Source: an uncultured Bacteroidales bacterium (GTDB taxonomy: Bacteria; Bacteroidota; Bacteroidia; Bacteroidales; FEN-979). From it: a stretch of 64,000 nt of DNA. Where the stretch lies: positions 124,001 through 188,000 of the forward strand of contig CAIVAT010000057.1 in NCBI GenBank assembly GCA_903903985.1. Direction: 5' to 3'. Below the pieces are notes generated by a model. The model ran no database searches and was not told the origin of the DNA. It was given only the letters and a program-made list of their open reading frames with translations. The position numbers and the translations under genes were made by a program. Shown here in pieces: positions 14,745-28,945 of the stretch (position 1 is its first letter; every line of letters starts with the position of its first letter).

Positions 14745-15127
14745 GCGGGAGGTCGGGATTTTTGGGATTTTGATCCTGCAGTAATAACAGATTTTGCAGT
14801 TATGTTTGCCAGTTCTGCTGATTCATTGAAAAGAAATGTTACAACTTCATCGTTGGAATTAACCAAAGTGGATTCAATGATGAGTTTTATCCAGAATTTT
14901 GATTCGCGCATCTCTTTCAATACAATTTGCATTTTATGAATAAAATCAGCCCGGCTCTCTCCAGCCTTTGCTTCCTCATAATTTGCACCGGAAGATGTAC
15001 CGGCACGAAAAAGCTGGATGTAAACATGACGGCCGGAATGCGTCGCACAAAGCTGCTTTTCAAGTTTCATGATATTAACGACAAAAACCATGAAACGATT
15101 GGACATTTTATCAGAAAAACCATCCAT
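14741..15127 (-). CDS. Four-helix-bundle protein (23S rRNA intervening-sequence family)
   Basis: 128 residues with the family pattern SNRFMVFVVNIMKLEKQL, GTSSGANYEEAKAGESRADF, HKMQIVLKEMRESKFWIKLI. This small all-helical family was first described as ORFs in intervening sequences of 23S rRNA genes and is now found scattered singly in Bacteroidota, cyanobacteria and others; its function is unknown. The gene sits alone between a perfect hairpin at its 3' end and a 7-bp tandem repeat upstream (15166-15204), a setting suggestive of mobility. Confidence 0.75.
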   Translation of the reverse strand: MDGFSDKMSNRFMVFVVNIMKLEKQLCATHSGRHVYIQLFRAGTSSGANYEEAKAGESRADFIHKMQIVLKEMRESKFWIKLIIESTLVNSNDEVVTFLFNESAELANITAKSVITAGSKSQKSRPPA

Positions 15128-15165
15128 AGTTCCCTTATTTTAAACTGTTTTGTTTGTACTTTTCA

Positions 15166-15204
15166 TTTTGAATTTTGAATTTTGAATTTTGAATTTTGAA
15201 TTTT
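15166..15204. repeat. Tandem repeat, five copies of TTTTGAA
   Basis: Five exact 7-bp copies followed by TTTT, running into the stop codon of the lamin-tail gene at 15203. It is a low-complexity microsatellite between two minus-strand genes; slippage here could change spacing to the four-helix-bundle gene. Confidence 0.8.
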
Positions 15205-17821
15205 AATATAGCTTCCCTCCCAAAACAGCCGTCTTTCTAATTTTCTTCACGGTCCCATCCGGCCGTGTCAGTTCAATCAGCAGAATGTAATAACCCATCG
15301 GGGCTTTATTCCGCGCCATGGTGGTTCCATCCCAATAGAAAACACCTTCGCTCCCTATCAGCACATTGTTGGCAAGTTGCCTGATCAACCTGCCCCTGGA
15401 ATCATAAACCACGATATTTACTGAACAATCTGCTGCATACCTGCTGATGGAAACCATCAATAAATCATCCCGGCCATCGTTATCGGGTGAAAATATTTGC
15501 GGGCAAACCTTTGCCTCCTCATCCGTATCATCCGGTTCGATCCAATGAGAATTCCGGTAACCCGGGGTAGCAAACCCGGCAGTTTCTGCAGCCGAATGCC
15601 AGTTGTTGTGATCACTCGAAGGCAATTCGGGGTTGGTCCTTTCCAGGGAAACCCCTTCTGCCGTCACCAGCAACGGATAATGCATTTCAGGGTCATACTG
15701 CATCCTGTCGATGATCGCCTGGTTATCCTTTCGTGCGATGATTACCGTTCCCGTATCATCTCCAAGTACCGGAAATCCGTCCATCCAGGCAATGGCTTCA
15801 GGATTGCCGGGGTGATATCTTTCGTTCAGATCTTGTGTGTTTGAGGTCAAAGCGATATAATCACCCGGAAATAAAAGATAGCCGCCTGCAGTCAATGGCA
15901 TTGCATTGGGAAGTATTCCCGATGCGGTATCCCTGTTCGCAATAACCATTGTTTGAAGATCGATGACCTTTTCCGACCGGTTATACAATTCCACAAACCT
16001 GGCTCCCCCGGTGGCAGGATTGGATAAGAGTTCATTTATAACAACATCTTGTTTATCAACCTGTTGTGGCAACGCAAACCGGATGGAACGGGAGGTGTCG
16101 CAACTGTTCCCGGCACAATCTTGTCTCTTCCCCGAAATATTCAATGTATAGGTCACTCCGTTCTCGAACGAGTTATTAAAAATCAAATTTGCTGAAATGA
16201 ATCCCGGCTGAACCGGTGCGACCCTGACGGGGTGTGCCACCCCGTCAGGGTCGCCGACGGCTGGATGAATGGTCCAACCTGCCGGGGAAAGGAGGGACGT
16301 ACTATCCATCATCTCAGAGAATGTCACTTCCAGCAAGGCCGAATCGGAGATAACAGCCCTGAGTGCTTTGGGTTCACACAGATCCGGGGTGGCTTTTCTG
16401 ATGGAATTTTCCCTTCCTGGCGTGCCGCCGGACCCATCTGTCGAGGGGCCCCAGTTTTCACTGCAACCGCATGGATTGGAGGAATCCATCATTTCAATCG
16501 ACCATCCTCCCTCCTCTTTGAAGGAGCCCCGGTACCAGTCAGGTTGATAGGAAACAGCATGAATGACATGATGCAAGGGGTCTTTTAAAACAAGGGTTGT
16601 GCCTTCATTTGACAACGAGGTTGACGAGGTAAACAGCATGGCACATTTTGCAACATTCAAATAGGCAGAGTCCTTCACAATTAACAGGTATCCTTGCGCG
16701 GGAATGATCATCCGGGGAAAAACCTTTGAATAACTCCCGTATTTAAAGGTCCAGTCCTGCAGATTAACAGGAAAGGCAGACCGGTTGTACAATTCAACAT
16801 ATTCCCGGCTTGGCAGTGCGACCGGAGGATCGGGATTGGCCATGATTTCGCTGATCAGGATATCATATGGCTTCGGTTGGTGAAAACAGACCGGGACAAT
16901 CGTATCCTTCAGGCGATTCCCGGATAAATCTACCACATCCCGGACCAACATCGAATCCTTGACCTCTTCTGGCAACGGCTCAGGCAGGAATAAGGAAACG
17001 AAATCCGGCCGGAGAACATCCTGGCGGCTTGAATCGGGTTTGACTCCATGCGTCAGGAGCAGGTAGTTTCCGGGGTTTTCAGCACCTTGCTTTTGTACGG
17101 GTTCTGAAAAACCAATCTGTAGAACACTCGGAGTGGCTGCCTCCACGGAAAGAATCTCAGGCGGCAATGAATCATGAACAATCCTGCCGACATAAAAATC
17201 ATCGAAATAGAATTTTGTCGCATTGCTTGAGGTGTAACGGCACATCAGTCCAAACCATCGGGTGGCGCTGAATGAATCATCAAAAAATGTCCCTTCAGAA
17301 AAGTATCGGCTCCCCCCGGTCGTGTCAATCATCCCCTCCCAGTTTCCCGACTCATCGCGCGTGATTTTAATCCGGATGGTGTTGGTGGAATGTGCCATGC
17401 GGTAAGATTTGAAACTGAACAGTCTGGCTACAGCCGCACCCGTCTGCTTCATGATGCAAATAGAATCGTCACTACCTCCGGCCTGAAGATAATAACCATT
17501 CATGGGCAATACAACCCCGCCTGTATCCGCTGTTAAATAGATCCTTGCATGATTGTTGGAGGAGGTATTGAACGAGAGTTTTATCAGGAAACTCCATTCG
17601 GTGTTTAAAATCCTTGAATTCCGTGTAAACAGGATGGAGGTATCGCTGCCGGACGAATATAAATGAAGCTGCCTGGACGAATTGATTTCGAAATGCGTTG
17701 TATCGCCTGTCCATTTAGGATTGCGCGTAAAATTTCCGTCTGAAAAATCATCTGTTACCTGGCCCAGGGCAATGGAGGAAATGCAGACAATGCAAATAAT
17801 ACAGGAAGAAAAAGTTTTCAT
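15203..17821 (-). CDS. Secreted lamin-tail-domain protein with C-terminal FlgD/gliding-type domain
   Basis: 872 residues. Signal peptide 1-20 (ISSIALGQ). Residues about 25-210 are a beta-sandwich-like region (DDFSDGNFTRNPKW). Two lamin tail domains follow: the first near 320-480 (ILISEIMANPDPP, REYVELYNRSAFPVNLQDW, STDGSGGTPGRENS), the second near 615-760 (VVINELLSNPATGGARFVEL, FATPGYRNS). The last 95 residues form a FlgD-like / gliding-motility-type C-terminal domain (PQIFSPDNDGRDDLLMVSIS, VVYDSRGRLIRQL) consistent with T9SS export. Such proteins are large surface adhesins or nuclease-associated scaffolds in Bacteroidota; no catalytic motif is visible here. A perfect 17-bp palindrome lies inside the gene (16218-16254). 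Confidence 0.82.
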   Translation of the reverse strand: MKTFSSCIICIVCISSIALGQVTDDFSDGNFTRNPKWTGDTTHFEINSSRQLHLYSSGSDTSILFTRNSRILNTEWSFLIKLSFNTSSNNHARIYLTADTGGVVLPMNGYYLQAGGSDDSICIMKQTGAAVARLFSFKSYRMAHSTNTIRIKITRDESGNWEGMIDTTGGSRYFSEGTFFDDSFSATRWFGLMCRYTSSNATKFYFDDFYVGRIVHDSLPPEILSVEAATPSVLQIGFSEPVQKQGAENPGNYLLLTHGVKPDSSRQDVLRPDFVSLFLPEPLPEEVKDSMLVRDVVDLSGNRLKDTIVPVCFHQPKPYDILISEIMANPDPPVALPSREYVELYNRSAFPVNLQDWTFKYGSYSKVFPRMIIPAQGYLLIVKDSAYLNVAKCAMLFTSSTSLSNEGTTLVLKDPLHHVIHAVSYQPDWYRGSFKEEGGWSIEMMDSSNPCGCSENWGPSTDGSGGTPGRENSIRKATPDLCEPKALRAVISDSALLEVTFSEMMDSTSLLSPAGWTIHPAVGDPDGVAHPVRVAPVQPGFISANLIFNNSFENGVTYTLNISGKRQDCAGNSCDTSRSIRFALPQQVDKQDVVINELLSNPATGGARFVELYNRSEKVIDLQTMVIANRDTASGILPNAMPLTAGGYLLFPGDYIALTSNTQDLNERYHPGNPEAIAWMDGFPVLGDDTGTVIIARKDNQAIIDRMQYDPEMHYPLLVTAEGVSLERTNPELPSSDHNNWHSAAETAGFATPGYRNSHWIEPDDTDEEAKVCPQIFSPDNDGRDDLLMVSISRYAADCSVNIVVYDSRGRLIRQLANNVLIGSEGVFYWDGTTMARNKAPMGYYILLIELTRPDGTVKKIRKTAVLGGKLY
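16218..16254. repeat. Perfect 17-bp palindrome inside the lamin-tail gene
   Basis: The arms GCGACCCTGACGGGGTG (16218-16234) and CACCCCGTCAGGGTCGC (16238-16254) are exact inverted complements with a three-base loop. It is much more GC-rich than its surroundings, keeps the reading frame and encodes GDPDGVAHPVRVA in a linker between domains. It resembles a REP-type palindrome that inserted in frame. Confidence 0.75.
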
Positions 17822-17893
17822 AAACCATCTTTTTCTGCTTAATCGGAAAAGAACAAAAAGGTAATACGCCTGTTGATAAGAACTTCAATATGA

Positions 17894-17929
17894 ATTTCGC
17901 TGTTTCGCCATTTCACCATTTCGCTGTTT
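17894..17929. repeat. Short direct repeat ATTTCGCTGTTT
   Basis: The same 12 bases occur at 17894-17905 and 17918-17929, with a related stretch between (CGCCATTTCACC). It lies just upstream of the asd promoter and includes the expected -33 position. It is probably a micro-repeat typical of intergenic DNA; a role in regulation is unproven. Confidence 0.5.
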
Positions 17930-17935
17930 TTCTTT

Positions 17936-17943
17936 TATCTTTG
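17936..17943 (+). promoter_or_regulatory. -7 promoter box of asd
   Basis: TATCTTTG matches the Bacteroidota -7 consensus TAnnTTTG and lies 16 bp before the asd ATG at 17960. No exact -33 TTTG is present; TTTCG of the upstream repeat is at about the right distance. Confidence 0.55.
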
Positions 17944-17959
17944 CCGAAAATCTAAAACC

Positions 17960-18976
17960 ATGAAACTGGCAGTTGTCGGAGCCACCGGGCTTGTCGGAAG
18001 GGAAATCCTCAAGGTACTGGATGAACACAAAATATATCCTGATCCGTTCATCCCTGTTGCATCTTCAAAATCGGCCGGGCTTCCGCTCCTTTTCAATCAC
18101 CATCGTTACTTTATTCATACACACGAACAGGCGATAGAAGCAAAACCCGACGTTGCAATCTTTTCTGCAGGAGCCGCTGCTTCCAGGGAATGGGCTCCCC
18201 GCTATGCAGCGGCAGGCATTACCGTGATTGATAATTCTTCGGCCTGGCGAATGGACCCGGAAATTCCACTGATCGTTCCCGAAATTAATGCATCCATCCT
18301 GACAAAGCACCATAAAATCATTGCCAATCCAAACTGTTCAACCATTCAGCTGGTTCTGGCCCTGGCCCCGCTTCATGCAAAATACCACATTAAAAGGATC
18401 GTTGCATCCACCTACCAGTCGGTTACCGGCACCGGAGCCAAGGCCGTCCGTCAACTTGAAAATGAACGCAATGGCATTAAAGGGGAGATGGCCTATCCAT
18501 ACCCGATCGACCTGAATCTTTTCCCGCACGGGGGAGATTTTCTTGAAAACGGATACACTTCAGAGGAGATGAAGCTGGTGAGGGAAACACAAAAGATTCT
18601 CAATGATTATTCCATCCGGATCACTGCAACCATCGTCAGGGTCCCTGTATTGGGAGGACATTCCGAGGCGGTCAACCTGGAATTCGAACATGATTTCGAA
18701 ATCGGAGAAGTTGTTCAGCTGCTCGCAAACACGCCGGGGATTGTCATTCTCGATGATGTTAAAAACAACATCTACCCCATGCCGATCAATGCGGCAGGCA
18801 AAGACGAAGTTTTTGTCGGAAGGATCAGGCGCGATGAATCACAGCCCAATTCCCTGAACCTCTTTATTGTCGCAGACAACCTGCGAAAAGGCGCAGCCAC
18901 CAATGCCGTGCAGATTGCCGAATACCTTGAATCGGAAAATCTTTCAGGGGTTGATATTTCTCAACAATATCGTTGA
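17960..18976 (+). CDS. asd: Aspartate-semialdehyde dehydrogenase
   Basis: 338 residues, normal family length. The N-terminal Rossmann motif is VVGATGLVGREIL; the catalytic cysteine is Cys126 in ANPNCSTIQ; the substrate-binding and dimer regions include GTGAKAV and RVPVLGGHSEAVNLEF. The enzyme reduces aspartyl-4-phosphate with NADPH to aspartate semialdehyde, the branch point to lysine, diaminopimelate, threonine and methionine, in the cytoplasm. It stands alone, with its own -7 box upstream, and is followed by the promoter of the Crp/Fnr gene. Confidence 0.95.
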   Translation: MKLAVVGATGLVGREILKVLDEHKIYPDPFIPVASSKSAGLPLLFNHHRYFIHTHEQAIEAKPDVAIFSAGAAASREWAPRYAAAGITVIDNSSAWRMDPEIPLIVPEINASILTKHHKIIANPNCSTIQLVLALAPLHAKYHIKRIVASTYQSVTGTGAKAVRQLENERNGIKGEMAYPYPIDLNLFPHGGDFLENGYTSEEMKLVRETQKILNDYSIRITATIVRVPVLGGHSEAVNLEFEHDFEIGEVVQLLANTPGIVILDDVKNNIYPMPINAAGKDEVFVGRIRRDESQPNSLNLFIVADNLRKGAATNAVQIAEYLESENLSGVDISQQYR

Positions 18977-18993: not shown

Positions 18994-19024
18994 TTTGTTT
19001 TATATCAGTTTAGTACTATCTTTG
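18994..19024 (+). promoter_or_regulatory. Promoter of the Crp/Fnr regulator gene
   Basis: A -33 TTTG (18994-18997) and a -7 TATCTTTG (19017-19024) are separated by 19 bp, a full Bacteroidota-type promoter. Transcription would begin near 19031, after the first in-frame ATG at 18995, which is why the start codon at 19064 is preferred for the gene. Confidence 0.65.
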
Positions 19025-19063: not shown

Positions 19064-19759
19064 ATGGTAAATAAAACACAACATTCCTCCAATTGCGCTG
19101 CCTGTAATTGCAAAGCATCCATCTTTAAAAATTTATCCCCGCTTGAAATCGAGCTGATCAACAGCAGCAGGTTCCAGGTAAGTTATAAAGCCGGAGAAAT
19201 CATCTTTAAGCAGGGAACCCCTTCCCCGTATTTCGTTTGCGTCACCTCCGGTCTTGCCAAAATATACATTGAGGGTTACGGAAAAAATCTGATCCTGGCT
19301 TTGATCAAACCCGTTGATTATATTTTTGGTCCCGGGATCTATGTCGATAACCGCCACTATTATTCTGCTGCTGCTGTTGAAGATTGTACCGCCTGCCTTG
19401 TGGATGTGACCGTATTTAAAAAGCTCATTCGCGAAAATCCTGATTTTGCCGAAGAATTCATCAAACGGGTTTCACTCCAGTCCATCTTTAATTTTGACCA
19501 GGTGATCAGCCTGACCCAAAAACAGATGCACGGCCGGATAGCGGATGTTATATTTTATCTTTCCGATAAAATATACTGCCAGAACCCTTTTGAAATGACC
19601 ATTTCCAGGCAGGACCTGGCCGACCTTTCCGGGATGTCGAAGGAAAGCGCCATCCGGATTTTGAAAGAATTCAAGGAAGAAGGCATTCTCACCATTTCTT
19701 CCAATACCATGGAGGTCCTGAATACCAAACAGCTCCGCCAGATCAGCGAAACCGGCTGA
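19064..19759 (+). CDS. Crp/Fnr family transcription regulator with N-terminal cysteine cluster
   Basis: 231 residues from the ATG at 19064; the promoter at 18994-19024 rules out the in-frame ATG at 18995. Residues 11-16 read CAACNC, three cysteines close to the N-terminus as in oxygen-sensing FNR proteins, and Cys111 (DCTACLVDV) aligns with the fourth cluster ligand of E. coli FNR (MVCEIP). A cNMP-binding-type beta roll spans about 20-130 and the helix-turn-helix is at the end (TISRQDLADLSGMSKESAIR). The spacing CX2CX1C differs from E. coli FNR, so a 4Fe-4S cluster is plausible but unproven. It directly precedes two FNR-like boxes and the cytochrome cluster, which it probably controls. Confidence 0.85.
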   Translation: MVNKTQHSSNCAACNCKASIFKNLSPLEIELINSSRFQVSYKAGEIIFKQGTPSPYFVCVTSGLAKIYIEGYGKNLILALIKPVDYIFGPGIYVDNRHYYSAAAVEDCTACLVDVTVFKKLIRENPDFAEEFIKRVSLQSIFNFDQVISLTQKQMHGRIADVIFYLSDKIYCQNPFEMTISRQDLADLSGMSKESAIRILKEFKEEGILTISSNTMEVLNTKQLRQISETG

Positions 19760-19850
19760 TACAATAATCACAAACCCTCCTTTTCTTTTCCTTTTTATTG
19801 CTGCTTTCTACTCAGAAAATCACTTTTCTCCGTTTCCTTTTCTACACATA

Positions 19851-19885
19851 TTGATATATGTCAATGAAGAATTGAGATATGTCAG
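19851..19885. promoter_or_regulatory. Two FNR/CRP-like operator boxes before the cytochrome cluster
   Basis: TTGATATATGTCAA (19851-19864) and TTGAGATATGTCAG (19872-19885) both follow the form TTGA-N6-TCAA, close to the FNR consensus TTGATnnnnATCAA. They are exactly 21 bp apart, two helical turns, so dimers would bind on one face. They lie upstream of the promoter at 19912-19939, centred near -88 and -67 from the inferred start of transcription, positions suited to activation. Confidence 0.6.
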
Positions 19886-19911
19886 TTATTATATTAACAA
19901 ATCTCACCAAC

Positions 19912-19939
19912 TTGTTAACAGCACCCTTCATTATCTTTG
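19912..19939 (+). promoter_or_regulatory. Promoter of the multihaem cytochrome cluster
   Basis: The -7 box TATCTTTG is at 19932-19939 and a -33-like TTG at 19912-19914 is 17 bp upstream. The predicted transcript starts near 19946, about 68 bases before the first cytochrome gene. Confidence 0.55.
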
Positions 19940-20013
19940 ATATTTTTGTTCCCGAAACAATTTGCACAAGTTGTCTGCTGCATAAACGTATTTATTAACA
20001 AAAACTGTAAGAT

Positions 20014-21375
20014 ATGAAAAATTTACAAAAATTCTTTTTCACTGCCGGATTGATGTTCGCGGCAGCGTGTTTATTTTTAGCTTCCTGTACCAAAGAAGGT
20101 CCGGTCGGCGCCACGGGCCCGGCAGGGAAAGACGGAACTAATGGCAAAGATGCAAGTGAAACCTGCAAACAGTGCCACGCTAAAGCTGTTGTTGATGCAA
20201 TTGCAACAGAATTTGAAATGTCAAAGCACAATTGGGGAACAACGGCATTTGAAGAAGCCGGAAACACAGGCTGTACTCCATGCCATACCCAGAAAGCTTT
20301 CATTTATGTTTGCGAAAACAACACTCCGGTTGAATTTACATTTGCTGGCGGCAAATGGTCGAATCCTTATGCAACAAATGATGCCAATGCAATTGGCGCT
20401 ATCAGTTGTTTTACCTGCCACAGTCAGTTACACACCACCTATGGTATGTCCGATCTGATCCTGACCAACACTGCCCCGGTTAACATGACCATGTGGGGAG
20501 CTCCCGGTAAAGGCAAAACCATCGACTTCACTCAGGATGGCAGCAAAGGCAACTTGTGCGTAAAATGCCACCAGCCTCGTCCGCTCACCTGCGGATATGA
20601 CCCTGCAGGACGCGTTCTTGATTATGACTCAGTGGCACAATATCCAGCCGTCGTGATGTATGACAGCACTGCCGGTGTAAAAAACAAATACCTGAAGCCT
20701 TCCTACAGAATGCACATTCATTACGGCGCCGTTGGTGCTGTCGTTGCAGGGAAGGGTGCTATCGAATTCGCGGGCACCTATTCTTATGCGAGTTCTGCAC
20801 ATACCACGGTTGCTTCATGCCAGGACTGCCACATGGCCGGTCCGATGACGGGTATTGCCGGTGGTCACTCATTTAACGTGAGGAATGCAAAAGAATCTGC
20901 TTTAAGCTCCAGCACAACCTGGAACTTCAATGGTTGTAATGTGGCTACCTGCCACGGTGCAAGCCCGCTCGATGCAAATTCTGCCAAATTTAAGGATACC
21001 AGGGCTGCCGTAAAAACACTCCTCGATGCATTGGCTGTGAAAATCAATGCCTGTGGGTTAGGCCATGATATTCTCCACAAGAATGCCGATCCTCTGACAA
21101 ACGCCTGGGCTGGTATCGCTACAGGAAACCAGGATGGTTACCTAGATATCTACAGTGCAGGCACCAACGATGCTGGTTATTGGAGAGATCCTAGCTCCAC
21201 AAGCGCCATCAACATGGCAAAACCAAAGTTCCCGAAATTAACAAATGGTCAGACTGGTGCGATCATCAACTTCCAGTTCTGCTTAAGGGAATACAGTTTG
21301 GGTATTCACAACACCAATTATGTGAAAGCTCTCTTAAACAACTCTATTGCTGTTTTGGCTGCTCAGGGCTGGTAA
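20014..21375 (+). CDS. Hexahaem c-type cytochrome lipoprotein
   Basis: 453 residues. A lipoprotein signal ends LFLASC, so the mature protein is lipid-anchored. Six collagen-like G-x-x triplets (GPVGATGPAGKDGTNGKD) follow the anchor as a spacer. Haem motifs: CKQCH, CTPCH, CFTCH, CVKCH, CQDCH and one non-canonical CNVATCH with four residues between the cysteines. No enzymatic signature is seen. It is the first gene of the electron-transfer cluster, with an FNR-like controlled promoter before it and a strong terminator after it, so it is probably made in larger amount than the rest. A terminal outer-membrane electron carrier or reductase is inferred. Confidence 0.85.
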   Translation: MKNLQKFFFTAGLMFAAACLFLASCTKEGPVGATGPAGKDGTNGKDASETCKQCHAKAVVDAIATEFEMSKHNWGTTAFEEAGNTGCTPCHTQKAFIYVCENNTPVEFTFAGGKWSNPYATNDANAIGAISCFTCHSQLHTTYGMSDLILTNTAPVNMTMWGAPGKGKTIDFTQDGSKGNLCVKCHQPRPLTCGYDPAGRVLDYDSVAQYPAVVMYDSTAGVKNKYLKPSYRMHIHYGAVGAVVAGKGAIEFAGTYSYASSAHTTVASCQDCHMAGPMTGIAGGHSFNVRNAKESALSSSTTWNFNGCNVATCHGASPLDANSAKFKDTRAAVKTLLDALAVKINACGLGHDILHKNADPLTNAWAGIATGNQDGYLDIYSAGTNDAGYWRDPSSTSAINMAKPKFPKLTNGQTGAIINFQFCLREYSLGIHNTNYVKALLNNSIAVLAAQGW

Positions 21376-21391
21376 AATACAGTTCATTATC

Positions 21392-21430
21392 AAAAAAGGC
21401 TTCCGGGAGTTATCCTTGAAGCCTTTTTTT
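21392..21430 (+). terminator. Rho-independent terminator after the hexahaem cytochrome
   Basis: A perfect 12-bp stem (AAAAAAGGCTTC at 21392-21403 with GAAGCCTTTTTT at 21418-21429) with a 14-base loop and a T-run. It separates the first cytochrome gene from the remaining cluster. Confidence 0.85.
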
Positions 21431-21662
21431 AAATTTAACAACCGTTTCCCTGAAAATTGTATATCTTTATGATTGTTTTTTGCATCAGATAATTCATTAT
21501 TGCAAGATTAACAACATAAACAAAAACGGAATACATCCCGGAAAACAGATTCAGCCGGGTAAATACAGACCATTGTTAAATATTTAGCCGACTTTCCTTC
21601 TGGTAAAATTGTTTTGTTTCGGACTGCCGGTATAAAATCAGAAACCATTAAAAATTAAATAT

Positions 21663-22043
21663 ATGCGCAAAATTAAATTGATCAACCTGATCGCTGTTCT
21701 GTTAGGACTGTTTCTGTTTGGGGCATGTGAATACGCCTCCATTCAGCCGGAAGCCCCTCCCCCTCCTCCGCCTCCGGGAGATTCAACCAGTTTTTCACTT
21801 AAAGTTCAGCCGATCTTCAATTCCAACTGTATCGGATGCCATAACGGCTCTACCAATCCCGACCTGAGAGAGAATAAATCGTACCAGAGTCTTTTCGATA
21901 ACAACCTGGTCGTCAAATCTAATCCAGAGGGAAGTGTTTTATACACCTGCCTTCAGTCAGGCGGCGTAATGGCCAACTATGGAAACTCGACCAACAATGC
22001 CACGATCTATAACTGGATCAAAGAAGGAGCAAAGAACAATTAA
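21663..22043 (+). CDS. Monohaem cytochrome c-like lipoprotein
   Basis: 126 residues. Lipoprotein signal (LLGLFLFGAC), then a proline stretch (EAPPPPPPPGD) as linker and one haem motif CIGCH within VQPIFNSNCIGCHNGS. The pattern up to WIKEGAKNN is typical of small planctomycete/Bacteroidota-type cytochrome c modules that sit in the outer membrane. No methionine ligand is obvious other than that in GGVMANYG. It overlaps nothing and is followed 61 bp later by the barrel gene, suggesting joint transcription. Likely role: electron shuttle beside the DUF5777 barrel. Confidence 0.8.
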   Translation: MRKIKLINLIAVLLGLFLFGACEYASIQPEAPPPPPPPGDSTSFSLKVQPIFNSNCIGCHNGSTNPDLRENKSYQSLFDNNLVVKSNPEGSVLYTCLQSGGVMANYGNSTNNATIYNWIKEGAKNN

Positions 22044-22104
22044 TTCCGGCATGATTTTAGTATTCACGATAAATTTGAAACCAATGCATACAATGATATC
22101 TTCC

Positions 22105-23025
22105 ATGAAAAAAATCTTACTTGGTCTGGTCTTGCTTGTTTCCGGAATGGGTTATTCCTTTGCACAGGACTCGATCCCGGCCGAACCCGTAGTTACCCAG
22201 AAACCTCTTGCGAAGGCTGCCTTTGAAAGCGGCATTTGCATGGACAATATTACAGTGGCCATGCCACCTGCCAAAACCCTCGAATTTGTTTTGCAGCACC
22301 GCTTCGGTACCATCCAGAATGGCTGGTCCGACCTGGCCGGGATCTGGGGGGTCTCCAACATCCGCCTGGGATTGAACTTCACTGTTAATAAAAATGTGAT
22401 GGTCGGCCTCGGAACTACAAAAAATAATCGTCTCCAGGACCTGCAGGTTAAATATACATTCCTGCACCAGCGCAAAGAGGGATTTCCCCTTACCATTGCC
22501 TATTACCTGGATGTTTCCCTGAATGCCCTGGATAAGGATAAATTCGGAACCAATTATAAATTCGTCGACCGGTTTGCCTATTACAATGAATTCTTATTCG
22601 CCCGCAGGTTCAACAACATGTTCTCGGCCCAGCTCGGCATCAGCTATACCCATTTCAACAAGGTTGACCGGAGTGTCGATTCAACAGCCAAGAATGACGC
22701 CCTCGCGATCTCCTTGCTTGTCAGGGCCAAGATCAGCCCCCAGTCATCCATCGTACTTGCCTACCAGCAGCCCATCATTATAAACTATGATCCGGCATTC
22801 ATTGTCAGGTCTCCGGATAACTGGATGGAAATCCCGAAAAACAAAGCTCCCTATGCCAATATATCACTGGGATGGGAACTTTCGACGAGTACCCACACTT
22901 TTCATGTGTTCATGACTGCGGCACAGGGTATCCTTCCTTCGGAAATCGTGATGCACAATACAAATAATTTTTTCAATGGCTATATCCTTCTTGGGTTTAA
23001 TCTTACCCGTTTATGGAGCTTATAA
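22105..23025 (+). CDS. DUF5777-family outer-membrane beta-barrel protein
   Basis: 306 residues from the ATG at 22105 (MKKILLGLVLLVSGMGYSFAQ), which gives a clean signal peptide; in-frame ATGs further upstream overlap the preceding gene and lack signal character. The body alternates short beta strands (FVLQHRFGTIQNGWSDL, IRLGLNFTVNKNVMVGLG, FNGYILLGFNLTRLW with an aromatic end), typical of a small outer-membrane barrel. DUF5777 proteins commonly sit beside cytochromes in Bacteroidota; function is not established. Here a porin-like sheath for electron transfer across the outer membrane is a reasonable inference. Confidence 0.8.
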   Translation: MKKILLGLVLLVSGMGYSFAQDSIPAEPVVTQKPLAKAAFESGICMDNITVAMPPAKTLEFVLQHRFGTIQNGWSDLAGIWGVSNIRLGLNFTVNKNVMVGLGTTKNNRLQDLQVKYTFLHQRKEGFPLTIAYYLDVSLNALDKDKFGTNYKFVDRFAYYNEFLFARRFNNMFSAQLGISYTHFNKVDRSVDSTAKNDALAISLLVRAKISPQSSIVLAYQQPIIINYDPAFIVRSPDNWMEIPKNKAPYANISLGWELSTSTHTFHVFMTAAQGILPSEIVMHNTNNFFNGYILLGFNLTRLWSL

Positions 23026-23062
23026 TTAATTAATAATTGTTTAACCTAAATTCAAATTGATT

Positions 23063-23476
23063 ATGAAAACATCACAAAAAATTGCAACGATTTTAGTAAC
23101 AGTGATCATTGCTGTCGTATTCCTGTTTGGCAATGCAGTTCATGCGCAGGCAAAAGCAAAACCATGGCCGGTACCTGATAAAGACAAAGCCATGAAAGCA
23201 CCTGCCAAAGTTGACGCTGCTACCGGCAAAGACCTTTGGGCAAAGCATTGCAAATCATGCCATGGAAGCAAAGGCCTTGGCGATGGCCCAAAAGCCGCAT
23301 CACTGAAAACTGCAGCCGGCGACTTCTCCTCTGCTACTTTCCAGGCATTTACGGATGGTGAACTTTTCTATCGTACAAGCAAAGGCCGCGATGAAATGCC
23401 CGCATACGAAAAGAAAATTCCCGAGGCCAACGATCGCTGGGCACTGGTCGCCTTCATGCGTACAATGAAAAAATAA
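23063..23476 (+). CDS. Class I cytochrome c, periplasmic
   Basis: 137 residues from the ATG at 23063 (MKTSQKIATILV); an ATG two codons earlier is also possible. A signal peptide ends AVHAQA. A single haem motif CKSCH is followed by GSKGLGDGPKA and a likely methionine ligand in RDEMPAYEKKI, then the C-terminal helix RWALVAFMRTMKK. This is the usual layout of a soluble class I cytochrome c that shuttles single electrons in the periplasm. A strong terminator follows at 23504-23549. Confidence 0.88.
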   Translation: MKTSQKIATILVTVIIAVVFLFGNAVHAQAKAKPWPVPDKDKAMKAPAKVDAATGKDLWAKHCKSCHGSKGLGDGPKAASLKTAAGDFSSATFQAFTDGELFYRTSKGRDEMPAYEKKIPEANDRWALVAFMRTMKK

Positions 23477-23503
23477 AGGCATGATCAAGTGAAAATGATT
23501 CGT

Positions 23504-23549
23504 GAAAAGGGTGTATTTGGGATTTTCCCCAATCACCCTTTTCTTTTTT
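23504..23549 (+). terminator. Rho-independent terminator after the class I cytochrome c
   Basis: The stem GAAAAGGGTG (23504-23513) pairs exactly with CACCCTTTTC (23534-23543), with a shorter inner helix (TGGG / CCCA), and is followed by TTTTTTCC. It marks the end of the first half of the cluster. Confidence 0.8.
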
Positions 23550-23586
23550 CCTTTCCCAACCCGATTATCAAACTACATTCATTACT

Positions 23587-24609
23587 ATGGTTTACAAAGC
23601 AAATATCCGACCAGCGTGGGTTGTCCTGATTATGCTGTTGCTTTTTACCCTTGCCTTCACCCTGGTAAAAACATCAGACACACCTTCTTCAAAAACAATC
23701 CAGGCTGAACAGGAAAAACCTGACAAAATTGATCTTTCCAGGTTTAAAAATGCCGCAGAAAATGAAGTTTGCCTGAAGTGTCACGGCCAGTCAAAATATA
23801 CTTACGAAAACCCGGAATCAAAAAAAACAGTCACAAAGCGGATGTTCGCCGAATTGGTCATGAACCGGGATGTCTTTTATGTTTCAAATCATCGTGAATT
23901 CAAATGTACCGACTGCCATTCCGAGGATTACAGTACATTCCCCCATGCCGGAAATCTGCGTATGGAGGCCAAGGCCAACTGTATTGACTGTCATGGCGGA
24001 GATGAAAAATATGCCAAATTCAAATTCGAACAAATTGAGTCGGAATTTCAGGCAAGCGTTCACTCGGAAAAACATAGCGAAGATTTTACCTGCTGGATGT
24101 GCCATAACGCACATACGTATAAAATCAACGCCCGCACAAACGAAAACCTCAAAGAAACAATCCTTTACGACAACCTGATTTGCCTCAATTGCCATGGAGA
24201 TGTGAAAAATTATCAGTTGCTCACCAACAAAATCAAACCCAATATTTTACAAAAGCACGAATGGCTGCCGAACCAGGCTTCCCACTTCACCAATGTGCGT
24301 TGCATCGAATGCCACGCCAGGAATGAAGACACGCTGGTCGTTGCCCATCATGTGGTCGCTAAAAATCAGGCTGTCAGAAAATGTGAAGCCTGCCATTCAA
24401 AAAACTCCATCCTTTATGCCTCCTTGTACAAATATCAGGTGAGCCTAAAGATCCAGAAAGAAGGATTTATCAAAGGGCTGCTGATGGGAGAAACCACCAC
24501 CATCGGGCCCGATAAAAGCAACCGGTTGAATATCATCAGCCTGGTTATTTTCAGCCTTACCATCCTGGTTATCATGATCCATGCGATCCTGCGCATTAAA
24601 AATAAGTAA
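23587..24609 (+). CDS. Membrane-anchored heptahaem c-type cytochrome
   Basis: 340 residues. An N-terminal membrane segment (PAWVVLIMLLLFTLAFTLV) works as an uncleaved anchor or signal, and a second one lies near the C-terminus (IISLVIFSLTILVIMIHAIL). Between them are seven CXXCH motifs: CLKCH, CTDCH, CIDCH, CWMCH, CLNCH, CIECH and CEACH. The periplasmic haem domain would thus be tethered at both ends. Two-anchor multihaem cytochromes occur next to NrfD-type quinone modules and accept electrons from the quinol pool. It overlaps nothing and is 4 bp before the cytochrome b gene, so the two are very likely translated together. Confidence 0.85.
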   Translation: MVYKANIRPAWVVLIMLLLFTLAFTLVKTSDTPSSKTIQAEQEKPDKIDLSRFKNAAENEVCLKCHGQSKYTYENPESKKTVTKRMFAELVMNRDVFYVSNHREFKCTDCHSEDYSTFPHAGNLRMEAKANCIDCHGGDEKYAKFKFEQIESEFQASVHSEKHSEDFTCWMCHNAHTYKINARTNENLKETILYDNLICLNCHGDVKNYQLLTNKIKPNILQKHEWLPNQASHFTNVRCIECHARNEDTLVVAHHVVAKNQAVRKCEACHSKNSILYASLYKYQVSLKIQKEGFIKGLLMGETTTIGPDKSNRLNIISLVIFSLTILVIMIHAILRIKNK

Positions 24610-24613
24610 TCCT

Positions 24614-25237
24614 ATGAACCACGAAAATCAACGATTCTATCTGTATCCTGTCTGGATCAGGATCTGGCATATGGTCAATGCCCTTCTCTGCCTTATCCTG
24701 ATCATCACCGGGTTAAGTATCCAGTTTTCCAATCCGGGGACAATGGTTAAATTCAGTGCTGCCGTTTCAGTGCATAACATCGCAGGAATAATATTGTCAA
24801 TCAGTTACGCACTGTTTTTTCTTGGCAACCTTTTTACTCCCAACGGAGCCTATTATGTGATCCCGGTCAAAGGATTTATCACCCGGCTTAAAAAACAGTT
24901 CATTTACTATACGATCGGGATTTTTAAGAAGGAGGATGCACCATTTCCGGTGAATGAGGAAAGTAAATTCAACCCCCTGCAACAGGTCACCTATGTTGTT
25001 TTAATGTACGGATTTGTTCCGGTTATTGTCCTTACAGGCTGGGGGCTGCTTTACCCGGAAATTACCGTTAACAGTTTTGTTGGCTTTAGTGGACTTGATC
25101 TTACAGACCTGCTCCATATTTTTGCAGGCTTTACAATCAGCATCATTATGTGTGTACATGTCTATTTTTGCACCATCGGAAAAAGTCCGGTAAGCAATTT
25201 TATCAGCATGATCAATGGTTATCATGAATCTCACTAA
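24614..25237 (+). CDS. Cytochrome b, four-helix membrane subunit (thiosulfate reductase / hydrogenase b type)
   Basis: 207 residues from the ATG at 24614 (MNHENQRFYLYPVWIRIWH). Four hydrophobic segments are seen, with candidate haem-b histidines in RIWHMVNALLC, VSVHNIAGIIL, LLHIFAGF and CVHVYF. This matches the PF01292-type diheme cytochrome b that links the quinone pool with periplasmic redox proteins. It is 4 bp after the heptahaem cytochrome and 11 bp before the iron-sulfur protein, strong evidence for one complex. Confidence 0.82.
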   Translation: MNHENQRFYLYPVWIRIWHMVNALLCLILIITGLSIQFSNPGTMVKFSAAVSVHNIAGIILSISYALFFLGNLFTPNGAYYVIPVKGFITRLKKQFIYYTIGIFKKEDAPFPVNEESKFNPLQQVTYVVLMYGFVPVIVLTGWGLLYPEITVNSFVGFSGLDLTDLLHIFAGFTISIIMCVHVYFCTIGKSPVSNFISMINGYHESH

Positions 25238-25248
25238 AATTTTAAAAC

Positions 25249-26211
25249 GTGGAAGAAGAATTGAATAAAAACCAGAAAAACTCACGTCGACAATTCATTA
25301 AAAAGGGACTCATTGCCGGTGCAGGGGTTGCTGTGGGAAGCGGCCTCATTGCGGCTTACGTTGACTCCACTGCAGCAGAAACCGGGGAAAAAGTGAAGGT
25401 TCTTACCACCGGTGGCGAAATCATGGAGGTGGACAGGGGCTTGTTGAAATTGCCCAGGGTCTCCCGCGAAGAGTCGCACAAAGGTATTCCCGGCAGGAAA
25501 TTTGTAATGGTCATCGACCTCGGAAAATGTAAAAATGCCAGGAAATGTGTGCAGGCCTGTCAAAAAGGCCATCACCTTCCGAAAAGCCAGGAATTCATGA
25601 AGGTCTACCTGCTGCAGGATTCGGAAAAAACTGCCCCGTACTGGTTTCCAAAACCCTGCTTTCACTGCGACAACCCTTTGTGCGTCAGCGTGTGCCCTGT
25701 CGGGGCAACCTTCAAGCGCAGCGATGGAATTGTTCTGATTGATAACGAACGGTGCATTGGCTGTAAATTTTGCATGACCGGATGCCCCTACTCAACCCGC
25801 GTTTTTGCCTGGAAACATTATCCGGAATTCGATGTAGACAAAGAGCCTTATTCTCCTGAAGCCAGCAGCCCCGGAAAAGAAGGAACCGTTTCGAAATGTG
25901 ATTTCTGTCCCGACCTGATCCGGGTTGGCAAAATCCCATATTGCGCCTCCGCTTGTCCGATGGGAGTTATTTATTTTGGCGATGTCGACGAGGACACGGT
26001 CACCAATGGTACGGAAACTTTTCAATTCAGCCAGCTTATTCACGACCGGGCCGGATACCGCTATCTGGAAACGCTCGGAACACGACCCTGCGTTTACTAC
26101 TTACCGCCTGTCGACCGCCAGTTTGAAGTTGACCGGGGATTCGGCGATCTGGATGAAAACATTAAGGAAAGATACAAAGACACACCATACAGTAAAAAAA
26201 ATAAACCGTAA
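25249..26211 (+). CDS. Tat-exported 4Fe-4S ferredoxin-like subunit (NrfC/PsrB/HmcB type)
   Basis: 320 residues starting with GTG at 25249. The N-terminus carries a twin-arginine signal (SRRQFIKKGLIAGAGVAVG), so the folded, cofactor-loaded protein is moved to the periplasm. Cysteine groups: CKNARKCVQAC, CFHCDNPLCVSVCP, CIGCKFCMTGCP and CDFCPDLIRVGKIPYCASACP, as in four-cluster DmsB-like subunits, although the first group has an unusual CX5CX3C spacing. It relays electrons between the NrfD membrane subunit and the haem proteins. It is 3 bp before the NrfD gene. Confidence 0.88.
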   Translation: MEEELNKNQKNSRRQFIKKGLIAGAGVAVGSGLIAAYVDSTAAETGEKVKVLTTGGEIMEVDRGLLKLPRVSREESHKGIPGRKFVMVIDLGKCKNARKCVQACQKGHHLPKSQEFMKVYLLQDSEKTAPYWFPKPCFHCDNPLCVSVCPVGATFKRSDGIVLIDNERCIGCKFCMTGCPYSTRVFAWKHYPEFDVDKEPYSPEASSPGKEGTVSKCDFCPDLIRVGKIPYCASACPMGVIYFGDVDEDTVTNGTETFQFSQLIHDRAGYRYLETLGTRPCVYYLPPVDRQFEVDRGFGDLDENIKERYKDTPYSKKNKP

Positions 26212-26214
26212 ACC

Positions 26215-27528
26215 ATGGAACTGCAACAAAAAAATCCACTGAAAGAGTTTGCGCCACAACTCGAGCGGACCAGCATTCAGGGTTATGCCTGGATCCTTTT
26301 CCTGCTGATGGTTATCGGAGTAGGCGTTTATGCCTTTCTTCAGCAAGTAATACATGGCCATGAAGTTACCGGAATGCGCGACAATGTCGTTTGGGGGGTG
26401 TATATCGTAAACTTCATTTTTTTCATGGGGGTCAGTTATGCCGGTGCACTCATTTCGGGGACGCTACACCTTTTCAAAACAGCATGGCGTAAACCGATCA
26501 TCCGCATGGCCGAATTCATTACCATCATTGCACTGCTGATCGGGCCCTGCTTTATCCTCCTCTGCATTGGCCGGCTTGATAAGCTGCACTACCTGGTTAT
26601 TTTTGGAAGAATCCAGTCGCCCATCACCTGGGACGTCATCGCCATTTCAACGGATATTTTCGGATGCTTTATCTTCCTCTACCTTTCCTTGCTGCGCGAC
26701 CTGGCAACACTCCGCGATTACGAACTGCTGCAGCTTCCAAACTGGAGGAAAAAGATTTACAAGGCACTTGCATTGGGTTATACCGGCACTCCCGAACAAC
26801 AGGAACGATTAAACAGAGCTACAGACATCATGGCCGCCATGGTCATTGCCATTGCCATCATTGTTTACTCCGTTTTGGCCTGGATCTTCAGCGTGACCCT
26901 GCAACCCGGCTGGCACAGTACCATTTTTGGGCCCTATTTCGTTATTGCTGCGGTCTATTCCGGAAGTGCAGTGCTGATCCTCTGCATGTGGGTTTTCAGA
27001 AAAGTTTATCATCTCGAAGAATATATTACGAAAAAACATTTTGTTTCCGTCGGGGTGATCATGCTCGTTCTTGCCGCCTTTTTCGGCTACTTTACCTTCA
27101 GCGATTACCTTACAAAATGGTATGGCAGCGAAAAGAATGATGAACTGCTGATCCAACTGCTCTTTAAGAAATTTTACTGGCCATTCATCATTTCAAATTA
27201 CGTGGGGGTGCTTTTACCATTGCTGGTAGTCGGCATTGCAAAATTCAGGACCATAACGAACATCACGCTTACTTCCATCGTTGTTGTCATTGCCCTGTGG
27301 CTGAACCGGTACATCATCGTCGTACCCACACTTGAATCTCCCTACCTGCCAATCCAGGATTCACGGCCCGAATGGCTGAACTATTCGGCAACATGGGTCG
27401 AATGGAGCCTCACTGCAACCGGGGTTGCTGTATTTTGCCTGCTTTTTACCCTGGCTTCAAAATTCATTAACATTGTTCCGGTCACCGGATTGCAAAAAGA
27501 AGAGAAAAAAGAAGATATTTTAGTTTAG
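26215..27528 (+). CDS. NrfD/PsrC-type quinone-interacting membrane subunit
   Basis: 437 residues with about ten hydrophobic segments (for example YAWILFLLMVIGVGVYAFL and VWGVYIVNFIFFMGVSYAG). The pattern of the first third is typical of the NrfD family, which binds menaquinone/menaquinol in the cytoplasmic membrane and passes electrons to a periplasmic ferredoxin-like partner, here the preceding gene. No catalytic molybdopterin subunit is found near, which separates this cluster from Psr, Dms and Qrc systems and brings it closer to Hmc, Tmc or Geobacter Cbc-type complexes. Confidence 0.88.
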   Translation: MELQQKNPLKEFAPQLERTSIQGYAWILFLLMVIGVGVYAFLQQVIHGHEVTGMRDNVVWGVYIVNFIFFMGVSYAGALISGTLHLFKTAWRKPIIRMAEFITIIALLIGPCFILLCIGRLDKLHYLVIFGRIQSPITWDVIAISTDIFGCFIFLYLSLLRDLATLRDYELLQLPNWRKKIYKALALGYTGTPEQQERLNRATDIMAAMVIAIAIIVYSVLAWIFSVTLQPGWHSTIFGPYFVIAAVYSGSAVLILCMWVFRKVYHLEEYITKKHFVSVGVIMLVLAAFFGYFTFSDYLTKWYGSEKNDELLIQLLFKKFYWPFIISNYVGVLLPLLVVGIAKFRTITNITLTSIVVVIALWLNRYIIVVPTLESPYLPIQDSRPEWLNYSATWVEWSLTATGVAVFCLLFTLASKFINIVPVTGLQKEEKKEDILV

Positions 27529-27558
27529 TTATTCACCGGATTTCCTCATCCCACACTT

Positions 27559-28458
27559 ATGAAAAGAGTTTTCGCGTTTTTTATCTTTCTTGTCTCCATG
27601 GTTTCGTTGGTTCTTCCGCCATTGAACGCATATTCGGAGGAAAAAACCGACTCCACCGCGGCGCCGGCCGAATCACGGTTGGCGATGGCTTATTTGTGCA
27701 GCTCCGATTCGGTCATATTGACGGCAACCCTTAGCATTAAAAAAGGAGAATCAACCCTCGCCCTCGAAAATGCATCCATCGAATTTACCGTGTCAACGGG
27801 GGCAGATAGCAAATTTTTAGGCAAGGCCATGACCAACCAGGAGGGAATTGCAGTTTGTTCATTTCCTTACACAGGATTGCCGGCTGGTACCGACGGAATG
27901 ATTTCCTATACGGCAAGATTCACCGGTAGTGATAAATATCCGGGTGCAGAATCATCCTTCCATGCCAAACCGGCAAAAATCAGACTCTCCTTCAGTATTG
28001 AAGATTCTCTCAGGATATTAAAGGTGACAGCTACCCAGAAAAATGAAAAAGGCGAAGAGGTTGCCATTCCCGGTGAAACCGTGCTCATTTATGTTCCCAG
28101 GTTGTTCAGTTTGTTGAAAATCGGTGAAATTGCCCTTGATGCAAAGGGTTCCGGAACACTTGAGTTCCCTAAAGCAATTGTTGGAGACACGCTTGGAAAC
28201 CTGGTGGTGATGGCTAAAATCGAAGAACATGATAAATTTGGCTTCGTTCTGGGCAAGAACACCATCAATTGGGGTGTTCACAAGCAATATTACAAGGCTG
28301 AAGTTCCTTCCCGTGAGCTGTGGACGCCGATCGCCCCGCTTTGGATGATCATCACCCTTCTCATTATGCTCGCAGGCGTATGGGCCCATTATATGTATGC
28401 CGTTTATGAACTGGTCATGATCAAACGACTCAGTAAAAAAGACAAACCGCTTTTTTAA
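27559..28458 (+). CDS. Unknown secreted protein with C-terminal membrane anchor, in the cytochrome cluster
   Basis: 299 residues, not recognised. Signal peptide ends PPLNAYSEE. Residues about 45-150 and 150-245 look like two immunoglobulin-like beta domains (VILTATLSIKKGESTLAL, then ISYTARFTGSDKYPGAESSF, RLSFSIEDSLRILKVTATQK). A single membrane helix lies near the C-terminus (LWMIITLLIMLAGVWAHYMY) followed by a short basic tail. No haem motif and no cysteine pair are present. It follows the NrfD gene by 30 bp and is likely a structural or assembly subunit of the same complex; this is inferred from position only. Confidence 0.65.
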   Translation: MKRVFAFFIFLVSMVSLVLPPLNAYSEEKTDSTAAPAESRLAMAYLCSSDSVILTATLSIKKGESTLALENASIEFTVSTGADSKFLGKAMTNQEGIAVCSFPYTGLPAGTDGMISYTARFTGSDKYPGAESSFHAKPAKIRLSFSIEDSLRILKVTATQKNEKGEEVAIPGETVLIYVPRLFSLLKIGEIALDAKGSGTLEFPKAIVGDTLGNLVVMAKIEEHDKFGFVLGKNTINWGVHKQYYKAEVPSRELWTPIAPLWMIITLLIMLAGVWAHYMYAVYELVMIKRLSKKDKPLF

Positions 28459-28489: not shown

Positions 28490-28945
28490 ATGGTTCAGCC
28501 AATACTTTACTCCACTGAAATCCTGAAGGCCTTGTCGGGTGGAGACATCCGTAAAGCCAATGAATTGATGGGAAAGGCCTATTCGATACAGGCCCTGGTT
28601 GTTCATGGAAACCATCTTGGCAAAAGCCTCGGTTTTCCCACTGCAAATCTTGAACTGCCTGAAAATAATCCGTTTCTGCTGGCCAATGGCGTTTATGCCG
28701 TTACCGCCAGGGTAAATGACATCCTTTATCAAGGCATGGCTAATGCCGGCGTTCGCCCCACCATGCATGGCAAATCACTGACCATCGAAATCAATTTGTT
28801 TGATTTTACAGGAAATCTTTATGGGATGACCCTTTCAGTTAATTTTTATCATCGTATCCGTGATGAAAAAAAATTCGAAAGCCTCGACCAGCTGGTTCAG
28901 CAAATTCGCCTTGATAAAACAGAGGCCCTGAGGTTACTTTCCTGA
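28490..28945 (+). CDS. Stand-alone riboflavin kinase domain
   Basis: 151 residues. The sequence matches only the C-terminal part of bifunctional RibF: it begins within the end of the FAD-synthetase domain (STEILKALSGGDIRKANELM) and continues with the complete flavokinase domain (GKSLGFPTANLEL, GVYAVTARVN, GVRPTM, EINLFDF). The nucleotidyltransferase motifs of the N-terminal half are absent. It should phosphorylate riboflavin to FMN. Either a full ribF exists elsewhere, or FAD synthesis uses another protein. A -7-like TAGTTTTG sits at 28478-28485, close to the ATG. It ends overlapping the 3' end of the convergent gldH. Confidence 0.78.
   Translation: MVQPILYSTEILKALSGGDIRKANELMGKAYSIQALVVHGNHLGKSLGFPTANLELPENNPFLLANGVYAVTARVNDILYQGMANAGVRPTMHGKSLTIEINLFDFTGNLYGMTLSVNFYHRIRDEKKFESLDQLVQQIRLDKTEALRLLS

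Follow-up and report, generated by a model that had tools for sequence, protein, structure and literature searches.

A modular Bacteroidota operon encoding a candidate menaquinol-to-surface electron conduit without a molybdopterin enzyme

A 64,000-nucleotide stretch of contig CAIVAT010000057.1 (positions 124,001 to 188,000; hereafter the window), from an uncultured Bacteroidales bacterium, carries a run of ten genes between positions 19064 and 28458, for which an earlier note had proposed a role in conducting electrons between quinones and the cell surface. All ten open reading frames (ORFs) were found on the + strand and in the order given there, including the regulator start at 19064 (Table 1). 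The host genome has 5.2 Mb in 195 contigs and is 87% complete. The gene families named earlier are borne out by Pfam and NCBIfam domains together with haem motifs, the LIC11213-like and Ig-like matches lying below cut-off. Nine of the ten products are identified by a domain or haem motif. The tenth, IgMem, has two membrane segments, an Ig-like match that is only sub-threshold, and three weak matches in a profile search of the PDB. The Pfam cytochrome matches of the hexahaem lipoprotein, MHC6, are likewise all below cut-off. Two elements can be added to the list, an FNR-like box and a riboflavin kinase gene. From invariant residues, six c haems are predicted in MHC6, one in the lipoprotein c1lipo, one in the class I cytochrome c, seven in MHC7 and two b haems in cytochrome b. 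The likely true starts of the regulator, barrel, cytochrome c and cytochrome b genes were inferred from those of orthologues. A promoter and terminator scan was uninformative (24 promoter-like signals, 17.0 expected, sd 4.1; nine terminator-like signals, 11.7 expected).

Table 1. Genes and regulatory element of the operon, in window coordinates.
Feature	Position	Strand	Basis and remarks
Crp/Fnr-family regulator	19064..19759	+	Pfam PF00027 (cNMP_binding)/PF13545 (HTH_Crp_2); 254-aa ORF opens at 18995
FNR-like box TTGATATATGTCAA	19851..19864	+	1 mismatch to TTGATN4ATCAA; upstream of hexahaem gene
MHC6, hexahaem lipoprotein	20014..21375	+	5 CXXCH and one CX4CH, lipobox, collagen-like N-terminal stretch
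c1lipo, monohaem lipoprotein	21663..22043	+	LIC11213-like, 55 bits (cut-off 100)
DUF5777 outer-membrane beta-barrel	about 22105..23025 (start inferred)	+	PF19089, E 8e-65
Class I His/Met cytochrome c, predicted periplasmic	about 23063..23476 (start inferred; ORF opens at 23057)	+	PF13442/PF00034
MHC7, heptahaem cytochrome, NrfH/c3-like	23587..24609	+	N- and C-terminal transmembrane segments
Di-haem cytochrome b561/PhsC-like	about 24614..25237 (start inferred; ORF opens at 24581)	+	PF01292, E 5e-23
Tat-exported iron-sulfur protein, 320 aa, no molybdopterin domain	25249..26211	+	15 invariant Cys
NrfD-family quinol-site subunit, ActC type	26215..27528	+	PF03916, E 1e-30
IgMem, Ig-like periplasmic domain and C-terminal transmembrane segment	27559..28458	+	Ig-like match below Pfam cut-off
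Stand-alone riboflavin kinase	28490..28945	+	PF01687, E 6.9e-41; 31 bp downstream of IgMem

The conservation of this arrangement was followed from NrfD. An alignment of 17 NrfD proteins, used as the scan query, gave at least 563 confirmed stretches, of which the best 80 were kept. In agreement with the proposed restriction to Bacteroidota, 78 of these 80 loci bear names of that phylum; one belongs to an unassigned bacterium and one is named Alphaproteobacteria. This last locus (L124, record Alphaproteobacteria INTA.CYC.164) has the full operon with an NrfD identity of 83%, and its metagenome-assembled genome (MAG) is probably misnamed. The closest named NrfD relatives within this best 80 (88-92% identity) include the lake-named MAGs Loclat, LacPavin and AlinenLipids. 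One locus, L174, is without an NrfD call. In 48 of the 80, the flanks reach 6 kb or more on the left side of NrfD and 2.5 kb or more on its right side, and the counts that follow refer to these flanked loci unless otherwise stated; many of the 80 are close kin, so that counts are not independent.

The iron-sulfur (FeS) protein is found in all 48 flanked loci, IgMem in 47, cytochrome c in 45, the DUF5777 barrel in 42 and c1lipo in 41; c1lipo, where present, always adjoins the barrel (41 of the 42 barrel loci). MHC6 occurs in 32 and the regulator in 24. MHC7 is present in 26, in every case with both cytochrome b and DUF5777, and a protein with 15 transmembrane (TM) segments occurs in five, never together with DUF5777. 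Over all 80 loci, DUF5777 is found in 54 and MHC7 in 35, lower proportions that are partly explained by contig ends. Since the order recurs in named Bacteroidota loci, the ten-gene arrangement is not a product of chance, and the suggestion that its two halves are unlinked can be rejected, even though the units are separable. The halves do not, however, part at 23.5 kb as the earlier note had it: the natural seam lies between cytochrome b and the FeS protein. Barrel and core (FeS protein, NrfD, cytochrome c and IgMem) also occur together in the isolates Lutibacter agarilyticus DSM 29150, L. oceani 325-5, L. maritimus DSM 24450, L. litoralis JCM 13034, Seonamhaeicola sediminis W255, Yeosuana aromativorans JCM 12862 and Maribacter arenosus CAU 1321. 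Seven regions were moreover taken from an even draw of 148 genomes of the phylum; six have the barrel (G146, G086, G103, G033, G126 and G099) and the seventh (G120) is an alternative complex III (ACIII). Genome searches with the FeS protein scored a limited number of candidates, so that the lack of an FeS hit in a genome may be a miss.

The inner-membrane proteins point to a quinol-oxidising unit. In a PDB profile search, NrfD gave eight matches, the top four being ActC chains (6f0k, 260 bits), followed by ActF at 43 bits. Hmc, Tmc, Qrc and Geobacter Cbc had been named as the known relatives; Qrc and Cbc do share parts with the operon, but the closest known complex as judged by this NrfD search is ACIII. 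The FeS protein is nearer in sequence to PsrB (2vpw_B, 122 bits) and to 6cz7_B (118 bits), which we take to be ArrB, than to ActB (90 bits), and its HmcB match in NCBIfam is below cut-off. Fifteen Cys are kept in 90 of 90 aligned FeS proteins. The second Cys of motif I is replaced (Ala97), so that one [3Fe-4S] and three [4Fe-4S] clusters are expected; ActB of L050 instead lost a Cys in motif III. In molybdoenzymes the motif-I cluster faces the catalytic subunit, and the change in motif I would therefore fit the loss of such a subunit and the passage of electrons to a cytochrome. ActB has the same cluster tally, as given in excerpts of PMC8076601, with the 3Fe cluster at a different position. 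The redox ligands of the other subunits are equally well kept: CXXCH in 84 of 84 and Met114 in 83 of 84 aligned cytochromes c; His 30, 65, 179 and 193 in 36 of 36 cytochromes b; and, in all 26 aligned MHC7 sequences, seven haem motifs together with His 102, 120, 159, 176, 224, 233, 254 and 332. No ActA chain was matched when the MHC7 profile was searched against the PDB up to an E-value of 1.

With ACIII (ActABCDEF), the operon shares an ActC-type NrfD, an FeS protein with a monohaem cytochrome c, and the proposed quinol:cytochrome c role. It lacks the molybdopterin-like domain of ActB, the pentahaem ActA and ActF, and has a single NrfD. Hmc and Tmc have a large HmcA/TmcA cytochrome and a cytoplasmic HdrD-like subunit. 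Qrc (QrcABCD) resembles the operon in its hexahaem subunit, its FeS protein with one 3Fe cluster and its NrfD (PMC8076601, excerpts); its molybdopterin-like subunit QrcB is without counterpart here, and the barrel and lipoproteins are extra. Geobacter Cbc4 (CbcSTU) and SirCD, which can be likened to the operon by description only, combine an FeS protein with an NrfD/PsrC-type or b-type membrane subunit, and Cbc4 also has a multihaem cytochrome c; both are quinol dehydrogenases feeding anaerobic respiratory routes, according to the available parts of PMC11434368. The operon differs from them by its cytochrome b, monohaem cytochrome c and outer-membrane components.

The absence of a molybdopterin enzyme, put forward in the earlier note, appears to extend to the relatives: two molybdoprotein BLAST queries matched one of 1,314 ORFs, namely ActB of an adjacent ACIII in L181. 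In that locus, a partial ACIII-like set (0-5.4 kb; ActB-like domain, ActC-like NrfD and monohaem protein) lies directly upstream of MHC6-c1lipo-DUF5777-FeS-NrfD. No CXXCK motif was seen in ORFs with at least three CXXCH in the 80 loci. When Pfam was run on 65 of 103 complete unlabelled run neighbours, no molybdenum enzyme or NrfA was among the 25 of 87 matched families listed. A hidden molybdoenzyme can thus be rejected on the two BLAST queries and the CXXCK pattern; the exclusion is weaker for enzymes of other kinds.

In the outer-membrane unit, all six haem motifs are invariant among 36 aligned MHC6 sequences, and so are another six His (72, 140, 236, 263, 285 and 432). These His are enough for bis-His ligation of all six haems, which suits a wiring function. 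The best PDB profile match of MHC6 is OcwA (6i5b, 62.7 bits), followed by 6qvm (57 bits), which we take to be OmhA. The Lutibacter MHC6 passes the cut-off of the Pfam MtrC/MtrF domain (39.9 bits; cut-off 30), whereas that of the window stays below it (25.6 bits). MHC6 is likely the outer, surface-side tip of the system. OcwA, its best solved relative, is a cell-surface terminal reductase of Thermincola potens that serves soluble and insoluble substrates (PMC6703420, excerpts). It is nonahaem and comes from a Gram-positive host (PMC6703420, PMC7829351, both in excerpts), whereas MHC6 combines six haems with a lipid anchor and a collagen-like segment.

The haem-motif Cys and His and the lipobox Cys of c1lipo are present in 51 of 51 length-filtered rows. 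For the barrel, whose family assignment stands, an AlphaFold2 model (pLDDT 85.6, pTM 0.79) has 12 main strands and resembles, by Foldseek, FapF, NanC (TM-score 0.65 on target) and other small porins; a sequence search of the PDB with the barrel gave no match. The combination of an outer-membrane barrel with a lipid-anchored multihaem cytochrome recalls MtrCAB and OmbB-OmaB-OmcB, as described in excerpts of PMC6344600, but here the predicted barrel has 12 strands and its partner is monohaem instead of octa- or decahaem. A single haem beside a barrel is also the layout of Cyc2, a monohaem-porin in one protein (PMC6344600, excerpts); in the operon, haem and predicted 12-strand barrel are encoded by two genes.

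The place upstream of c1lipo is not always held by MHC6. EB_dh lipoproteins occur there in L184 and L187, together with MHC6 in L159 and as a sub-threshold match in L158; PSCyt1 (L171) and YceI (L158, sub-threshold in L183) are other occupants. In L091, the tip place is taken by a protein that carries a single haem motif together with a Por_Secre_tail of the type IX secretion system (T9SS; 32.8 bits, cut-off 27), which may be read as a hint of secretion, the sole direct one.

The regulation and neighbourhood of the operon bear on the conditions of its use. Cys34, Cys37 and Cys134 of the regulator (numbering of the 254-aa ORF) are invariant in 36 of 36 sequences, the window's included, and no fourth Cys is conserved at 80% or more of these. 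FNR regulators use four Cys to ligate a [4Fe-4S] cluster. A box with at most one mismatch to the FNR-like consensus stands upstream of the first gene in 37 of 79 core runs, as against 8 of 223 control genes; for exact boxes the counts are 13 of 79 and none of 223. Given the kinship of the loci, this statistic is descriptive only. Separate MHC6 genes beside a regulator have their own box in L138, L139, L151, L170, L180 and L192. As for reductant, the genes that precede the barrel within its run include, in L137, those for ETF alpha, an acyl-CoA dehydrogenase, a CCG protein and a membrane Fe-S protein, and in L162 those for ETF and an acyl-CoA dehydrogenase; in L156, genes for an FeFe-hydrogenase and a NuoF-like protein are found still farther upstream and no longer belong to the run. 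Such neighbours fit an outward flow of reductant.

Taken as a whole, these features lead us to propose that the operon probably encodes an anaerobically induced conduit from menaquinol to the cell surface. Menaquinol would be oxidised at the ActC-type NrfD, and the FeS protein, with its three [4Fe-4S] clusters and one [3Fe-4S] cluster, would pass the electrons on to the His/Met cytochrome c. MHC7 and the di-haem cytochrome b could form a second entry for quinol or electrons into the same periplasmic pool. From this pool, electrons would reach c1lipo, held at the DUF5777 barrel, cross the outer membrane and arrive at MHC6, which would reduce metals, humics, flavins or a partner cell. The ActC-like NrfD, the lack of a visible molybdenum subunit and OcwA as the best relative of MHC6 count for such a conduit, as do the EB_dh and T9SS-tailed proteins in the tip position of relatives.

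A number of observations weigh against this proposal. A barrel of 12 strands has too little space inside to hold a cytochrome domain or to act as an MtrB-type sheath, so that the predicted barrel does not fit an MtrAB-style arrangement. Flavobacterial isolates carrying the core are presumably aerobes, and no box match was found in nine flavobacterial loci that open with MHC6 (L144, L150, L152, L153, L160, L161, L172, L179 and L189), which means that FNR-like control is not common to all carriers. Conservation is incomplete, MHC6 being absent from 16, the regulator from 24 and the barrel from six flanked loci. MHC6 also matches octahaem nitrite reductases (52 and about 40-38 bits) and NrfA (43 bits and below) in the PDB profile search, so that catalysis by MHC6 remains conceivable; its model (pLDDT 68) gave no Foldseek match at E <0.001, and 13 weak matches to NrfA or octahaem nitrite reductases (ONR). 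In L199, a fused MHC7 and cytochrome b stands beside an octahaem tetrathionate-reductase-like protein, without barrel, and in L200-L202, from another family, MHC7 relatives have 13 haem motifs with DUF5777 not in view. Finally, the residues after the lipid-bearing Cys of MHC6, CTKEGP (12 of 35), fall short of the full C-X-K-(D/E)2 surface export signal of lipoproteins (PMC5080379).

Part of this evidence can be turned into the main competing explanation, a periplasmic or outer-membrane respiratory reductase system, in which the predicted 12-strand barrel DUF5777, resembling NanC and other small porins, would admit a soluble acceptor that MHC6, as a member of the OcwA/NrfA/ONR superfamily, would reduce. 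The nitrite reductase matches of MHC6, the octahaem neighbour of MHC7-cytochrome b in L199 and the soluble substrates of OcwA (PMC6703420, excerpts) are all in keeping with it. We nevertheless regard it as rather unlikely, given the lack of CXXCK noted above, the six extra invariant His, which permit a six-coordinate state for all six haems, and the occupation of the tip position by unrelated proteins, one of them T9SS-tailed.

The core is present three times in the host genome (window, C187 and C34). On C34 (L040 7770-16792), FeS-NrfD and a cytochrome c-IgMem fusion lie near SCO1, COX1 and COX2-cytochrome c, and would constitute a compact molybdenum-free ACIII-like unit beside a probably caa3-type oxidase. 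This location suggests that the core is a quinol:cytochrome c oxidoreductase that plausibly oxidises quinol. The copy on C187 (L039 8718-14034) has an NrfD-IgMem fusion, then cytochrome c and a 560-aa protein of about 15 TM segments (weak DUF2339). Both fusions point to IgMem as a component of the complex. The wiring is in principle reversible, and a paralogous core beside oxidase genes, as well as the possible ion translocation by NrfD-like subunits (PMC8076601, excerpts), would also be compatible with an inward route, with Fe(II), minerals or a partner as the electron source and menaquinone or an oxidase as the recipient; since FNR-like control and reductant-supplying neighbours fit export better, such uptake seems improbable. 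That an outer-membrane cytochrome/barrel unit merely neighbours an unrelated small ACIII, each being found without the other (C34 and C187 of the host included), is most improbable, because the two are joined in 42 of the 48 flanked loci, in several families and with more than one NrfD clade, and the gaps at the seam measure only 11 and 3 bp in the window.

Judged by the gene arrangements, the system is built from separable units in differing combinations, with varying surface tips. The set MHC6-c1lipo-DUF5777-(cytochrome c)-MHC7-cytochrome b, not complete in every locus, is found where no FeS-NrfD unit adjoins it; in flavobacteria, FeS-NrfD-IgMem-cytochrome c is found with the barrel and without MHC7-cytochrome b. 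MHC7 was detected in 5 of 296 genomes of the phylum and in 40 of 198 of the order, the host genome being counted. Twenty order-level MHC7 loci were inspected, 19 of them from genomes without an FeS match at E 1e-50. FeS-NrfD-IgMem was found in none of the 20, up to eight genes per side, L216 having a distant FeS match only, and DUF5777 adjoins MHC7 in 18; the two exceptions come from contigs about 5 kb long (L211, L212). Near MHC7 in seven order loci (L203, L204, L208, L214 and L216-L218) there is a NapC/NirT-like cytochrome with three TM segments, its family assignment being read on L081. A 19-haem protein of 928-935 aa with a cytochrome-b-like C-terminus (Pfam on L206 and L202 only) lies beside MHC7-cytochrome b in L206 (9152-11950), L202 (4897-7698), L208 and L213, and is split in L221. 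When 82 NrfD rows are placed in a tree, the barrel-linked ones fall into more than one group: the starred branches force 13 changes, a number inflated by 18 rows without context label (short contigs or neither marker), and the row ActC_L016, evidently a wrong ORF (branch >7), was ignored. Some barrel-linked NrfDs cluster with oxidase-linked rows, and the group of the window lies apart.

This modularity raises the tentative idea of a redox port used across the phylum, in which c1lipo and the 12-strand DUF5777 barrel would act as a split Cyc2-like single-haem wire with exchangeable tips and entries. Outer tips would comprise the OcwA-like hexahaem protein, the EB_dh lipoprotein, the T9SS-secreted haem protein and YceI; inner entries would be the molybdenum-free ActC-type NrfD complex, the NapC-like cytochrome and the 19-haem cytochrome b. 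On its own account, L201 encodes (10571-11860, - strand) a 431-aa protein with an N-terminal CXXCH and, by eye, a barrel-like remainder, a Cyc2-like layout. It replaces c1lipo and DUF5777 between MHC6 and the 13-haem MHC7 relative and has no family match. Among 119 genomes of the class in question, 27 give a match to this protein, in many to its C-terminal part only.

To our knowledge, no extracellular electron route has been characterised in Bacteroidota, a phylum abundant in anoxic lakes, sediments and guts. DUF5777 is not mentioned in the literature searched. Searches on NrfD with extracellular electron transfer in Bacteroidota, and on Lutibacter with extracellular electron transfer and cytochromes, matched only work on Desulfovibrionaceae and on mud volcanoes, respectively. 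Unnamed putative porin-cytochrome genes were noted in Bacteroidetes of a humic lake, where conduits were thus already suspected (PMC6344600, excerpts), and these genes may include relatives of the operon. Beyond this, sequences and models point to several new elements: a molybdenum-free ActC-type unit, an OcwA-like tip, a 12-strand barrel, FNR-like boxes, modularity and an extra riboflavin kinase. If the proposed conduit is real, Bacteroidota would gain a way to dispose of electrons outside the cell, and in lake water humic or mineral acceptors could receive reductant from acyl-CoA dehydrogenase and ETF. It would also provide a testable gene set, a role for DUF5777 and a case of a small barrel and one haem crossing the outer membrane; Lutibacter maritimus DSM 24450 and Maribacter arenosus CAU 1321 are isolates with a form of the operon.

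The riboflavin kinase ORF consists of the kinase domain alone and may be an eleventh gene of the operon. The host genome has two Flavokinase loci, the other being a 309-aa frame on C119. Relatives of the extra kinase occur in 15 of the compared loci, all among the closer NrfD relatives; the chromosomal flanks are syntenic in these loci, so that the link may be positional only.

Further haem and Tat proteins were seen around the core. L107 encodes (15072-18625, - strand) a 25-haem protein and a 6-haem OmpA-domain protein a few genes from FeS-NrfD-IgMem-cytochrome c. In L137 (14162-16985, -) and L172 (14659-15111, -), a tetrahaem protein is encoded next to the operon in the opposite orientation; in L137, its neighbours, a Tat protein and a protein with eight TM segments, look like a further FeS/NrfD set. 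Finally, a Tat-signal protein of about 88 aa precedes the FeS gene in L044 (8741-9010), L046 (8625-8891), L049 (12111-12377) and others, and on visual comparison its tail (MLTxDGxxVEV) looks like the stretch at the N-terminus of the FeS protein.

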